Shown: one piece after another, positions 6,160 through 10,459 of the stretch
Numbering within the stretch: position 1 is the stretch's first letter
How the letters are laid out: every line of letters begins with the position of its first letter
Assembly: GCA_902571235.1 (NCBI GenBank)
Contig: CACGBI010000006.1
Span: forward strand, 1-57,708
Source of the DNA: an uncultured Pelagibacteraceae bacterium
GTDB lineage: Bacteria; Pseudomonadota; Alphaproteobacteria; Pelagibacterales; Pelagibacteraceae
Direction of reading: 5' to 3'
Length of the DNA: 57,708 bases
Made by a program: the position numbers and the translations under genes
Notes under the pieces: generated by a model
Databases searched by the model: none
What the model was told of the DNA's origin: nothing
What the model saw: the letters and a program-made list of their open reading frames with translations, nothing else

Positions 6160-8053
6160 TGTTTAAAATTTTATGTTTAATCAAGTCTTCTTTTATTTCA
6201 TCTAAAATTATAGGATCATCTATTGTTGGTGGTATTTTGTATTCAATATTATCTGCTATTTTTCTAATAGTTCCTCTTAATATTTTTCCAGATCTTGTTT
6301 TAGGTAGCCTTTTAATTACAATTACAACTTTAAATGCTGCAACTGGGCCAATTTTATCTCTAACCATTTGCACACATTCCTTTGATATTGTTTCATTAGC
6401 TTTATCTACGCCAGATTTTAGAACTACTAAGCCAATAGGTAATTGACCTTTTAATTTATCAGAAATTCCAAGCACCGCACATTCAGCAACTGATTGGTGT
6501 TCTGATAATACTTCTTCGATCGCACCTGTGGATAATCTATGACCCGCAACATTTATGATGTCATCAGTTCTTGACATAATCCAGATATAACCATCATCAT
6601 CAATATGTCCTGCATCATATGTTTGATAATATCCTTCATAGTTAGACATATAGTTTTCTTTGTATCTTTGATCTGCATTCCATAGTGTTGGGAATGTTCC
6701 AGGAGGTAGAGGAAGCTTAACAACTATATCTCCCATTTCATTTGGTTTTGCTAATGATTGATCTGGTTTAATTATTTTTACATCATAACCAGGAACTGCT
6801 TTACAGGCTGAGCCATATTTTGTCTTCATCATTTCAATTCCAGTACAATTTGAGCTAATTGCCCAACTAGTCTCTGTTTGCCACCAATGATCTATCACTG
6901 GAACCTTTAGTAAATTCTCTGCCCATTTGATTGTATCTGGATCAGCTCTCTCTCCTGCAAGAAATAAACTTTCGAAATTACTTAAATCATATTTAGAAAA
7001 AAATTTACCTTCAGGATCTTCCTTTTTTATAGCTCTAAAAGCTGTTGGAGCTGTAAATAATGATTTTACTTTATAGTCTGAGATAATTTTCCAAAAAGCT
7101 CCTGCATCGGGCGTTCCTACTGGCTTACCTTCAAACAAAACTGTAGTACATCCTTTAAACAGTGGTGCGTAAACAATATAAGAGTGTCCAACAATCCATC
7201 CTATGTCGCTCGCAGACCACCAAACATCATCTGCATCGATGTTATAAATATTCTTCATAGTCCATTTAAGAGCAACAATGTGACCACCAATATCTCTGAC
7301 TATACCTTTTGGAGTCCCAGTTGTTCCAGATGTATAGAGAATATAAGCAAACTCATTTGAATTTATCTCAACGCAATCAACTTCTTTAGCATTTGAAATT
7401 ACTTCTTCCCAACTTACTTCATTTGGAGCATTTAATTTTACCTCGTGACCAGGTCTTTGAAATAAAATCATCTTTTTAATCTTGTGACTAGCAATTTTTA
7501 TAGCTTCATCAACTAGAGGCTTGTATTCAACTGTTCGTCCAGGCTCAAACCCACATGATGCAGTTACTAAAATTTTTGCTTTACTGTCATCAATTCGACT
7601 GGCTAATTCATTTGATGCAAATCCACCGAACACAACAGAATGAATTGCGCCAATTCTTGCACATGCTAGCATTGCGATAACTGCTTCAGGTATCATTGGC
7701 ATGTAAATAATTACTCTATCACCTTTATTTGCCCCCTGTTGTTCCAATGCACCAGCAAATTTAGAGACTTTTGATCTTAATTCATCGTAAGTAAACTTAC
7801 TTTTTTTACCAGTGATGGGACTATCGTAGATTAATGCAGTTTTTTTTCCTCTACCTTGATCTATATGTATGTCTAAAGCATTATAACATGTATTTGTTAC
7901 CCCATCTTCAAACCATTTGTAGAAAGGATGTTTAGATTTATTTAAAATTTTTGTTGGTTTCTTAAACCAAAAGATATCTTCAGCTGCTTCTTGCCAAAAT
8001 TTTTCAGGTTTTTTAATTGATTGATCATAAATTTCTTGAAATTTTTTAGACAT
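6152..8053 (-). CDS. prpE: Propionyl-CoA synthetase-like acyl-CoA ligase (ACS family)
   Basis: The 633-residue protein is an AMP-forming acyl-CoA synthetase of the acetyl/propionyl class. It activates a short-chain acid to an acyl-adenylate and then to acyl-CoA. The AMP-binding P-loop YTSGTTGTPKG is at 240-250, the hinge-region YQTYDAGHIDDDGY is present, and the C-terminal PKTRSGKILR carries Lys590, the residue usually regulated by acetylation in this family. The N-terminal layout (WFEDGVTNTCYNALD) resembles PrpE more than Acs. It begins the unit with the SMR gene and diverges from proteorhodopsin across a 215-nt regulatory region. Substrate preference, propionate or acetate, is inferred. Confidence 0.88.
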   Translation of the reverse strand: MSKKFQEIYDQSIKKPEKFWQEAAEDIFWFKKPTKILNKSKHPFYKWFEDGVTNTCYNALDIHIDQGRGKKTALIYDSPITGKKSKFTYDELRSKVSKFAGALEQQGANKGDRVIIYMPMIPEAVIAMLACARIGAIHSVVFGGFASNELASRIDDSKAKILVTASCGFEPGRTVEYKPLVDEAIKIASHKIKKMILFQRPGHEVKLNAPNEVSWEEVISNAKEVDCVEINSNEFAYILYTSGTTGTPKGIVRDIGGHIVALKWTMKNIYNIDADDVWWSASDIGWIVGHSYIVYAPLFKGCTTVLFEGKPVGTPDAGAFWKIISDYKVKSLFTAPTAFRAIKKEDPEGKFFSKYDLSNFESLFLAGERADPDTIKWAENLLKVPVIDHWWQTETSWAISSNCTGIEMMKTKYGSACKAVPGYDVKIIKPDQSLAKPNEMGDIVVKLPLPPGTFPTLWNADQRYKENYMSNYEGYYQTYDAGHIDDDGYIWIMSRTDDIINVAGHRLSTGAIEEVLSEHQSVAECAVLGISDKLKGQLPIGLVVLKSGVDKANETISKECVQMVRDKIGPVAAFKVVIVIKRLPKTRSGKILRGTIRKIADNIEYKIPPTIDDPIILDEIKEDLIKHKILNNG

Positions 8054-8080
8054 ATAAACTTGATTCGATAGTTACTTTTA

Positions 8081-8100
8081 TTGTGGTTTTTAAATCACAA
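8081..8100. promoter_or_regulatory. Near-perfect inverted repeat upstream of the acyl-CoA synthetase gene
   Basis: TTGTGGTTT-TT-AAATCACAA is a 9-2-9 dyad with one G-T imperfect pair, 28 nt upstream of the acyl-CoA synthetase ATG (8053, minus strand) and 168 nt upstream of proteorhodopsin. Its position fits an operator for the minus-strand gene. No regulator gene is adjacent and no function is known. Confidence 0.35.
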
Positions 8101-8195
8101 ATTGTATTTAATTTTAAAAAACGAGCAAAATCAATGTAAATAAATGACATTTAAGTCTTCTATAAAGTCTATTAATTTGGTATTTAAGCTCAACT

Positions 8196-8233
8196 TTGAC
8201 TTAGGGAGACCTAAGTCTAGTTTATATAAACTA
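8196..8233 (+). promoter_or_regulatory. Proteorhodopsin promoter region with two abutting dyads
   Basis: A -35-like TTGACT (8196-8201) overlaps a perfect 8-4-8 inverted repeat, GACTTAGG-GAGA-CCTAAGTC (8198-8217). This is followed without a gap by a perfect 16-bp palindrome, TAGTTTATATAAACTA (8218-8233), that holds the -10-like sequence TTTATA at 8221-8226. The resulting -35/-10 spacing is 19 nt, longer than the usual 17 nt, with the dyad lying mostly in the spacer. That layout is known from MerR-family activated promoters. The strong ribosome site AAGAGGGAG (8254-8262) follows before the ATG at 8269. The promoter assignment is inference; the repeats are exact. Confidence 0.6.
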
Positions 8234-8268
8234 AAACGAGTAAAAACTAACTAAAGAGGGAGTTTTTT

Positions 8269-9036
8269 ATGAAAAAACTTAAATTGTTTGCTCTTACAGC
8301 TGTTGCCCTAGTGGGTGTTACAACTGTAGCAAACGCTGCGACCGCTATGTTGGCACAAGATGACTTTGTTGGAATTTCTTTTTGGGTAATTTCAATGGGT
8401 ATGTTGGCTGCAACAGCGTTCTTCTTCATGGAAAGAAGCACTGTTAATCCTGCATGGAAAACATCAGTAACAGTAGCAGGTCTAGTAACTGGTATTGCAT
8501 TTATCCATTACATGTACATGAGAGATGTATGGGTAAGCACTGGCGATTCACCAACAGTATACAGATATATTGACTGGTTAATTACTGTGCCATTACAGAT
8601 GATAGAATTCTATTTAATTCTAGTAGCTGTGAGAAAAGCAAACTCTGGAATTTTCTGGAGATTGTTAATTGGTTCATTAGTAATGTTAATCGGTGGATAT
8701 TTAGGAGAAGCTGGATACATCAACGCTACACTTGGTTTTATTATCGGTATGGCTGGTTGGGTATACATTCTTTATGAAATATTCTCAGGTGAAGCTGGTA
8801 AAGCTGCTAATAAGAGTGGAAACAAAGCTCTTGTAACTGCCTTCGGTGCAATGAGAATGATTGTAACTGTAGGTTGGGCTATTTACCCATTAGGTTATGT
8901 ATTTGGTTACCTAACTGGTGGTGTAGACGCTAACACACTTAACGTGGTTTACAACTTAGCTGACTTTATTAACAAAATTGCATTTGGTCTAGTGATCTGG
9001 GCTGCTGCAGTTTCTGGTAGCGCAGCAAGAAAATAG
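8269..9036 (+). CDS. Proteorhodopsin, blue-absorbing type
   Basis: This light-driven proton pump of the inner membrane has 255 residues, seven predicted helices and an N-terminal signal-like segment. Key residues align with green proteorhodopsin at a constant offset of 5: Asp102 (D97, Schiff-base proton acceptor), Glu113 (E108, proton donor), His80 (H75), Arg99 (R94) and Lys236 (K231, retinal attachment in NKIAFG). The spectral tuning position is Gln110 (L105 in the green form), predicting a blue-shifted pigment. It has the strongest ribosome site in the region and its own terminator, pointing to high expression. No retinal biosynthesis gene (blh, crt) is in the window. Codon use is richer in GC-ending codons than its neighbours, as expected for an abundant protein. 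Confidence 0.98.
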   Translation: MKKLKLFALTAVALVGVTTVANAATAMLAQDDFVGISFWVISMGMLAATAFFFMERSTVNPAWKTSVTVAGLVTGIAFIHYMYMRDVWVSTGDSPTVYRYIDWLITVPLQMIEFYLILVAVRKANSGIFWRLLIGSLVMLIGGYLGEAGYINATLGFIIGMAGWVYILYEIFSGEAGKAANKSGNKALVTAFGAMRMIVTVGWAIYPLGYVFGYLTGGVDANTLNVVYNLADFINKIAFGLVIWAAAVSGSAARK

Positions 9037-9058
9037 TTACCAAATAACTAAATAATTT

Positions 9059-9097
9059 TAGGGCGAGTATGTTTTCACATACTTGCCCTATTTTTTT
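9059..9097 (+). terminator. Intrinsic terminator after proteorhodopsin
   Basis: A 13-bp stem TAGGGCGAGTATG/CATACTTGCCCTA (9059-9071/9078-9090, one G-T pair) with a TTTTCA loop is followed by seven T (9091-9097). It lies 20 nt before the ferredoxin ATG, so transcription of the downstream genes needs read-through or a separate promoter. Confidence 0.9.
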
Positions 9098-9116
9098 GCA
9101 TAACTATATATAGCTC

Positions 9117-9437
9117 ATGGCAAAAATAACTTATATCACTCACGATAATCAAAATCATACTATTGAGGTTCAGAATGGATTGTCTGTTATGGAAGGAGCA
9201 GTTCAAAATGATATTCCAGGAATTGATGCAGATTGTGGTGGTGGTATGGCTTGTGCGACATGTCACGTATATGTTAATGATGAGTGGTTTGATAAACTTC
9301 CAGCAAAAGAAGAAGGGGAGGAAGACATGTTAGACATGGCTTTTGAACCAAAAAAAAATAGTAGATTAAGTTGTCAGATAATAGTTTCAGATGAACTAGA
9401 TGGTCTTACAGTAGACATTCCACTGAAACAGGGATGA
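9117..9437 (+). CDS. [2Fe-2S] ferredoxin, adrenodoxin/ISC type
   Basis: The 106-residue soluble electron carrier has the vertebrate-type/ISC ferredoxin cysteine pattern C40-x5-C46-x2-C49-x36-C86 and the acidic helix [12 protein letters not shown] used for partner docking. It sits right behind proteorhodopsin and overlaps the reductase gene by 4 nt (ATGA), so ferredoxin and reductase are expected to be co-translated and to work together, passing electrons from NADPH to an unknown acceptor. Known partners of such ferredoxins are cytochromes P450, Fe-S assembly and ring hydroxylases; none is adjacent here. Confidence 0.93.
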
Positions 9438-10459
9438 AAATGAATAAAACAGATGCATTAATTATTGGAGCAGGACCTACTGGTTTATTTACTGCACATC
9501 AATTAAAACTTATTGGCCTAGATTGTGAGATTGTTGACAACTTAGATAAAATTGGCGGCCAATGCATAGAACTTTATCCAGATAAACCTATTTATGATAT
9601 TCCAGCTGTACCAGAGTGTACTGGAGAAGAATTGACTAACAATTTAATTAATCAAATAAAACCTTTTAATATCAAATTCCACTTAAAAGAAAGAGTTGAT
9701 GAAGTTAAAAAAGAAGGTGACAACTGGATTGTAAAAACAAATAACGGCACAATATTTTCAACTCCAAATGTAATTATAGCAGGTGGTGTAGGATCATTTG
9801 AACCAAGAAAATTTTCAGTTAAAGAATGTGAAAAATTTGAAAATAAGTCAGTGCTTTATTCAATAAAAGATAAAAGTATATTTAAAGATAAAACAGTAAC
9901 AATATTTGGTGGTGGTGATAGTGCCTTAGATTGGGCATTAGAATTATCGAAAAACTCAAAGGTAAATTTAGTTCACAGAAGGGACGATTTTAGAGGTGCG
10001 CAAGCGACCGTTGATAAAGTACATGAACTCGCAAAAGCTAAGAAAATAGATCTTTATACAAAGTATCAAATGAACGCAATAAAAGGAGAAGGTCAATTAG
10101 AAAGTATAGATATCAAAAATGATGATAAAGAAACAAAAACTCTTAAAACAGATTATGCATTAGGTTTTTTTGGATTAATTATGCAACTTGGTCCAATTGC
10201 AAACTGGGGACTGAACATAGATAAAAAAACTATTGAAGTAGATACAGAAAAATTTGAGACAAACCAAAAAGGGATCTATGCAGTAGGAGATATATGCAGC
10301 TATCCAGGAAAATTAAAACTAATATTATCAGGTTTTCATGAAGGTGCTTTAGCTGCTAGAGCATGTTTTAAACTAGCAAGACCAAACGAAAAATATAGAT
10401 TTGAATTTACTACCTCATCAAAAACGATAAAAAATCGACTTGGTGTAAAAAGTGATTGA
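9434..10459 (+). CDS. Ferredoxin-NADP+ reductase, thioredoxin reductase-like type
   Basis: The 341-residue flavoprotein has an FAD-binding GAGPTG (12-17), an NADP-binding GGGDSA (159-164) and a C-terminal [14 protein letters not shown] block. It is built like thioredoxin reductase but lacks the CxxC redox pair, which marks the TrxR-like ferredoxin/flavodoxin reductases (FNR2/YumC type). A thioredoxin reductase label would therefore be misleading. It overlaps the ferredoxin gene before it by 4 nt and the GST-like gene after it by 8 nt. The predicted role is electron exchange between NADPH and the adjacent ferredoxin. Confidence 0.9.

Follow-up and report, generated by a model that had tools for sequence, protein, structure and literature searches.

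A conserved, structured 5' leader of the proteorhodopsin mRNA in SAR11 bacteria

The proteorhodopsin (PR) gene of SAR11 is a common energy gene of the ocean, and its expression has so far been described as simply constitutive. In the DNA analyzed here, a stretch of 57,708 bases from an uncultured Pelagibacteraceae bacterium that we call the window, two perfect dyads lie back to back a short distance upstream of this gene. The question raised by this locus is whether the dyads are an operator within a promoter, as an earlier note on this DNA had proposed, or a part of the messenger itself. Our approach was to compare the region between the upstream gene and PR across the genomes of the order, whose genera are numbered here g1, g2 and so on (g1 being that of the window), and to set the result beside a published transcription start from a related strain. 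The features of the region are collected in Table 1.

Table 1. Coordinates of the features in and around the PR leader of the window
Feature	Position	Strand	Description and basis
-35-like CTTCTA	8157..8162	+	CTTC (8157-8160) 100% in 119 distinct g1 upstream sequences
Extended -10 TTTGnTATTTA	8176..8186	+	TTTG (8176-8179) and TA (8181-8182) 100% in 119 distinct g1 sequences
Predicted transcription start (+1, A)	8193	+	Homology with HTCC7211
H1	8198..8217	+	5' stem-loop, 8 bp, 4-nt loop, sequence-variable
H2	8218..8233	+	Perfect AT palindrome, adjoins H1
H3	8242..8267	+	Hairpin 8242-8248 / 8261-8267; ribosome-binding site in loop and 3' arm
Shine-Dalgarno GAGGGAG	8256..8262	+	Sequence; 98-100% per position in 119 sequences
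PR coding sequence, 255 aa	8269..9036	+	Open reading frame; PF01036, E 8.3e-54

The 8-4-8 inverted repeat followed without a gap by a 16-nt palindrome, from which the earlier note set out, was recovered both by direct reading and by a repeat finder. The arms of H1 are GACTTAGG and CCTAAGTC (8198-8205 and 8210-8217; 100% match, 4-nt loop), those of H2 are TAGTTTAT and ATAAACTA (8218-8225 and 8226-8233; 100% match, gap 0), and 35 nt separate the end of H2 from the ATG of PR, which is the sole match to PF01036 that a profile search found in the window's incomplete genome. Counting perfect dyads with an arm of at least 8 and a loop of at most 8, the window contains 29, hardly more than the average of 24.4 over 25 dinucleotide shuffles, and a single dyad is therefore nothing unusual. 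Two dyads that abut are found only once in the window, as H1-H2, and in 0 of the 25 shuffles. The RNA fold computed for 8190-8300 has an energy of -24.3 kcal/mol (z -2.81), which 2 of 200 shuffles equalled. Beyond the other end of the gene, a terminator scan reported a terminator-like site at 9059-9090 with 14 pairs and a U-run.

The earlier note had read TTGACT (8196-8201) and TTTATA (8221-8226) as the hexamers of an over-long promoter, possibly bent by a MerR-type dimer and starting transcription near 8233. Both hexamers are at these positions, 19 nt apart, and this much speaks for a MerR-type promoter with a 19-nt spacer and an operator dyad. As promoter evidence the pair is weak: a sigma-70 scan of 7800-9600 returned 8 sites versus 7.3 expected, and the pair is not among them, its spacing of 19 falling outside the 16-18 range of the scan. 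TTGACT overlaps H1 and changes along with it, to TTGGCT, TTTGCT, TTGATT and others among the g1 leaders, and the lengths of H1 and H2 vary among leaders, with the 19-20 nt spacing of the hexamers not conserved.

The position of the start is given by differential RNA-seq mapped to the SAR11 strain HTCC7211, where Table 2 of PMC5069720 lists PB7211_669 ('bacteriorhodopsin') with the coordinates 529616 to 530457 and 507 start reads. We took genome G035 as HTCC7211; its PR frame runs from 529690 to 530457 and has the same end as the Table 2 entry. The column 'Start' in that table is the transcription start where one was mapped, a convention that we checked on two genes: for glcB the text of the paper gives 162 nt to the start codon and the sequence gives 162 nt, and for tuf, which is without start reads, the table 'Start' is the ATG. 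Read in this manner, the PR start of HTCC7211 (529616) lies 74 nt 5' of the ATG (529690) and 5 nt 5' of H1, which is equivalent to about 8193 in the window and 40 nt upstream of 8233. Both dyads are therefore transcribed in HTCC7211, and by inference in the window too, where they would form hairpins in the 5' leader. The extended -10 lies upstream of the dyads, at a distance to the start of 6 nt in the window (to the predicted start) and 7 nt in HTCC7211, and CTTCTA, which an 18-nt spacer separates from it, is a plausible -35. Between acs and PR, TTGTATTTAATTTTAAAAA and AAAATCAA (8102-8134) are strongly conserved and are perhaps the divergent acs promoter.

The mapped start in the relative, together with a -35 hexamer that is not conserved and a conserved -10 further upstream, led us to discard the MerR-type promoter, to which we assign next to no probability. 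The search for a suitable regulator had a divided outcome, with MerR_1 matches in 18 of 21 genomes (the ten in g1 lying in open frames of 122-144 aa) and the window's own genome, 72.55% complete, among the three without. What the earlier note had offered as a hedge, an mRNA stem at the 5' end, is the reading that the evidence favors. Of the two outcomes that the note had named as refuting its proposal, a start distant from 8233 was seen, in a relative, and a loss of the dyads was not, both having proved to be conserved in the alignment of relatives.

The changes that have accumulated in H1 can be used to ask which strand is under selection. The genome collections overlap, and identical leaders were counted once (105 of 132 g1 rows and 37 of 39 g4 rows). 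Among the 105 distinct g1 leaders, two-sided changes occur at all 8 pairs of H1; the two-sided cells number 65, versus 25.1 in shuffles with 0 of 500 reaching 65, and 87.7% of the outer-stem cells of H1 are paired. Two further controls are weaker, since the number of pairs with a two-sided change in g1 is 8 versus 6.3 in shuffles (54 of 500 reach 8), and a shift of the partners by -1 leaves the two-sided cells at 65. Under this shift, however, only 56.4% of the whole structure is paired instead of 95.2%, and the covariation score drops from 0.139 to 0.071. The H1 of g4 (37 distinct leaders) is longer, has another sequence and shows two-sided change at 5 of its 8 pairs. Of the 25 two-sided cells of the g4 structure (8.0 in shuffles, 0 of 500), H1 accounts for 16 and the inner pair of H2 for 9, and the weaker control gives 6 pairs with two-sided change versus 4.2 (39 of 500). 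G-U is far commoner than A-C, at 90 versus 13 cells in g1 and 95 versus 4 in g4, or 59 versus 11 and 40 versus 4 when distinct stems are counted; because G-U is tolerated only if the sense strand pairs, selection acts on the transcript. Counting against it are the cells that are neither pair, wobble nor A-C (89 of 837 in g1, 26 of 296 in g4), a number that is overcounted where H1 variants of other length aligned imperfectly. These comparisons show that H1 is maintained as an RNA stem-loop of the sense strand.

H2 has only two forms in g1, found in 121 and 11 of the 132 rows. Across genera, a core of GTTTA..TAAAC or GTTTAAAC is present in 198 of 219 rows, in 7 variants that differ in center and length, and in all 198 the self-complementarity runs through the center. 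The 21 rows scored by the script as lacking the core include at least six in which the start codon had been chosen wrongly (L123, L125, L126, L128, L129 and L133), and GTTTAAAC is visible by eye in L126, L128 and L133; L021, where the contig ends 5 nt 5' of the ATG, and L001 and L082, which are the window itself, were left out. By itself H2 is a weak fold, computed at -1.6 kcal/mol at 37 C and -3.55 at 20 C, and its covariation is limited to the inner pair in 9 of 37 g4 rows. The symmetry of H2 through its loop exceeds what a hairpin needs.

Such symmetry, kept to the center through 7 variants, is what would be expected if H2 were bound, as DNA or as paired RNA, by a dimeric protein that acts within the transcribed leader as a roadblock or a translation repressor, with H1 as a separate RNA feature. 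The palindromes in the leaders of opuAC, yhdW, potD, tauA, PB7211_298 and PB7211_130, described below, agree with such a site, but no single sequence is common to the palindromes of the different genes, and the length of H2 changes in 2-bp steps (16, 18, 20), which is unusual for a DNA dimer site. Changes at the outer pairs of H2 are compatible with G-U in L054 and in L197, which again argues against such a site, although two other g4 rows break the outermost pair. Counts of the pattern AGTTTAN{2,6}TAAACT rise above those of the reversed control in only 1 of 14 genomes and not in the other 13, so that we see no sign of a regulon, and H2 was rejected as a genome-wide operator. We regard a symmetric protein site as rather unlikely.

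H3 pairs AAAAACU with AGUUUUU and leaves GAGGG in the loop. These pairs are invariant in 105 of 105 distinct g1 leaders, and covariation within g1 is accordingly not possible. The arms are GAAAACU/GGUUUUC in 17 of 17 g2 rows and in 37 of 39 g4 rows and GAAACU/GGUUUC in the remaining 2 g4 rows, so both arms have changed together, in base and in length, relative to g1 and between rows. In 14 of 132 g1 rows the longest-run rule of the script that assigned the arms settled on a different A-rich 5' arm, despite the presence of AAAAACU. The computed stability of H3 is -9.2 kcal/mol at 20 C and -5.2 at 37 C; considered as an RNA thermometer, the hairpin is weak and its computed stability depends on temperature, but its loop contains GAGG.

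The loss of stability at 37 C would also suit a conformational switch in which the arms of H2 and H3 exchange partners under the influence of temperature, a ligand or a protein, and so hide or expose the ribosome-binding site. The H2 arms UAGUUU / AAACUA are nearly identical to the H3 arms AAAACU / AGUUUU and by reading are mutually complementary in the g1, g2 and g4 leaders displayed, and the window has a competing start-codon hairpin, AGUUUUUU-AUG-AAAAAACU. Several g1 members (L157, L159, L161, L163 and L167) have this hairpin disrupted or shortened, for which reason it was rejected as a conserved switch. No conserved aptamer-like loop accompanies the arms, and in the leaders compared the loop and stem of H1 vary and no conserved junction of the kind expected of a riboswitch was seen. 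The PR of Ca. P. ubique is described in a passage of PMC3090418 as constitutive and unchanged by light, which also argues against a switch, and we give the idea little credence.

A covariance model built on g1 was used to determine how closely the leader follows PR. It finds one strong copy in the window's genome, located at PR; four further matches have E values of 0.02 to 4.5. One of the four is the same locus read on the opposite strand; the best of the others (E 0.02) lies inside the end of a coding frame, was taken as chance and was rejected as another copy of the full element. At E 0.01 the model matches 211 of 297 genomes in the order, once in each except for two matches in G309, and it reaches only 3 of 11 genera, namely g1, g2 and g4. 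In the 76 g1 genomes searched for both, the leader is present in 70 of 70 with PR and in 0 of 6 without it (17 g1 genomes are listed without the leader, and the PR search covered 6 of these). Positions were compared by eye in 12 genomes, and in all 12 the PR start is where the match ends. The fold z has a mean of -3.12 over 102 g1 leaders and averages -1.14 in g4, and values below -1.5 are found in 38% of 34 leaders in g4, 57% of 14 in g2 and 36% of 11 in g7, g9 and g12. Comparison across genomes thus shows a conserved structured leader tied to PR. Four genomes of other genera (G007, G012, G022 and G060) have a second, distant rhodopsin match with 31-33% identity to the query.

In the remote genera g7, g9 and g12 the same order is kept with a different H1, which is followed by a U-run and then by TTTTTTGTTTAAACAAAAAA or a similar sequence; in g3, g6 and g10, and in most of g5, the loci that we examined had no clear H1-H2. 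The U-run consists of 6-7 U and occurs in L121, L122, L124, L127, L131, L132, L138 and L140. The upstream frame was examined in 6 of these loci and is divergent in each (by our reading acs-like, or carotenoid desaturase-like in L132), so the H1 hairpin is not the terminator of an upstream gene. These observations fit a transcription attenuator, with H1 as an intrinsic terminator that halts a share of the transcripts in the leader, and they count against a purely protective role of the leader; the terminator scan likewise flags the H1 of the window as terminator-like. In g1, however, the sequence after H1 is UAGUUUAUAU, which makes a poor U-run, we saw no antiterminator, and the text of PMC5069720 places PR 10th among starts by start reads. 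The scan flagged neither L121 nor L132, so the idea derives from our reading of the loci, and we consider attenuation improbable.

The explanation that we prefer, and hold to be probable, is that the SAR11 PR mRNA has a structured 5' untranslated leader of ~76 nt that acts in cis to give a high, light-independent output. Transcription would start at about 8193 and leave about 5 unpaired nt before H1. H1 and H2 together would shield the 5' end from decay of the 5'-end-dependent (RNase E-type) kind and would prevent mispairing of the leader; the AU-rich H3, itself weak, would clamp the spacer before the AUG and tune initiation. Acting in cis and after transcription initiation, the leader would in this way fix PR output at a high level irrespective of light; the constitutive expression described for Ca. 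P. ubique and the like design of the yhdW leader speak for this reading. We infer that protection of the mRNA by H1-H2, with the leader setting translation, is its most likely role. RNase E has a match in 20 of the 21 genomes searched, which were that of the window, 12 from its genus and 8 of the order; only the incomplete genome of the window has none. Against this reading, the five unpaired 5' nucleotides may fail to block a pyrophosphohydrolase, H2 by itself folds weakly, the fold z of g4 averages only -1.14, and several genera show no clear H1-H2. Pfam searches for Hfq and CsrA found neither family in those 21 genomes and were positive in 3 and 5 of 14 control genomes, so control that depends on Hfq or CsrA is unlikely and was set aside. 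With a conserved leader and a start mapped in a relative, the control of PR may sit in the mRNA.

The palindrome of PR has counterparts in other SAR11 leaders. We read the leaders of all 28 genes with start reads in Table 2 of PMC5069720 from their published starts. A perfect palindrome of 10-18 nt is present in 8 of 14 HTCC7211 leaders that are 11-74 nt long, outside other genes and non-riboswitch, a choice made after seeing them; against dinucleotide shuffles the combined P is 2.4e-6, or 2.3e-4 without PR and yhdW. PB7211_130 was first dropped by rule (early TTG start); taken with its ATG it has the 12-nt palindrome ATTGTTAACAAT, which brings the count to 9 of 15 and the combined P to 6.6e-7, or 6.5e-5 without PR and yhdW. 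Perfect palindromes of 10-14 nt are found in the mapped leaders of potD (L227), tauA (L292), PB7211_298 (L300), PB7211_641 (L299), PB7211_1419 (L308) and PB7211_130 (L302), and those of amt, acpP, dnaK, hupA, groS and PB7211_1146 are without such palindromes (longest 2-6 nt).

The leader of yhdW, whose product is by its look an aapJ-like periplasmic amino-acid-binding protein, has the design of PR: a stem-loop from about +3 and then an abutting or slightly overlapping palindrome, TTATTTGTTAACAAATAA. In the yhdW/aapJ-like loci L315-L343 (L344 was left undecoded), the palindrome is present in 27 of 27 decoded g1 loci, including that of the window's genome (L327) and L341, where it is 14 nt long. 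In g2 (L342) the stem-loop and the palindrome have both changed and both still pair, and in L343 the palindrome has changed and is still palindromic. For opuAC, 19 of 24 loci (L345-L368; the weak paralogues L369-L374 were left out of the count) have a perfect AT palindrome of 12-14 nt just 5' of the ribosome-binding site, in several sequences (CTTAATATTAAG, ATTAATATATTAAT and others).

The same tendency was sought across 252 genes in 400 kb of G035. Palindromes of at least 12 nt number 15 at -45 to -6, versus 5.5 in shuffles with a maximum of 10, and 6 versus 6.8 at -90 to -50, where there is no enrichment; for palindromes of at least 14 nt (4 versus 2.0, maximum 5) the excess is not clear. 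Signal-peptide-like starts have a palindrome in 4 of 12 cases versus 0.3, tauA and potD among these being already known, and other starts in 1 of 40 versus 0.8. The genome-wide effect in G035 is modest and depends on a rough gene caller. It is conceivable, though we judge it unlikely and advance it tentatively, that SAR11 has a general class of self-complementary leaders on many of its most highly expressed transporter and proton-pump genes, with either symmetric pairing or a symmetric partner that binds double strands. Between start site and ribosome-binding site, its members would carry a perfect palindrome rich in AT, in some cases (PR, yhdW) with a stem-loop abutting it on the 5' side, and what is conserved would be self-complementarity to the center and not one sequence, in genomes where Hfq and CsrA were not detected. 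The design common to PR and yhdW and the palindromes of the other transporter leaders suggest a possible general layer of control after initiation in a lineage with few regulators; if true, this would amount to a streamlined global control of energy and nutrient-uptake genes in SAR11.

As far as can be searched, the PR leader is apparently undescribed before. Searching the open literature by title and the start of the abstract, we found no description of it, and none of the main texts of PMC2704228, PMC11109978, PMC8632094, PMC2864571 and PMC6429828 contains the word rhodopsin. Rfam returned 7 weak matches for 7900-8400, with E values up to 5 and all below the gathering threshold, and a known RNA family was rejected on this ground.

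Several known systems resemble the PR leader in part. MerR-family promoters have a dyad near an over-long spacer; the PR dyads differ in being transcribed and in the lack of conserved hexamers. Attenuators of the intrinsic-terminator type have a leader hairpin and then a U-run, an arrangement that g7, g9 and g12 share and the window's genus does not. The 5' UTR stabilizer of E. coli ompA, a highly expressed membrane protein gene, consists of a 5' stem-loop near the start, a second hairpin and then the ribosome-binding site. The PR leader, which in HTCC7211 lies between the mapped start and the ATG with 5 unpaired 5' nt, and which shows covariation in H1 and, across genera, in H3, has these elements in the same order before a membrane protein gene. 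Its H2, however, is a perfect AT palindrome that adjoins H1, and its ribosome-binding site is inside a third hairpin; we claim no relation of sequence to ompA. Within SAR11, the motifs presented in Meyer et al. 2009 (PMC2704228) include one before pntA that, like the PR leader, has two stems in series and was found by comparison; as described there it differs from the PR leader in having a conserved second loop and in lying ~60 bp from its gene.
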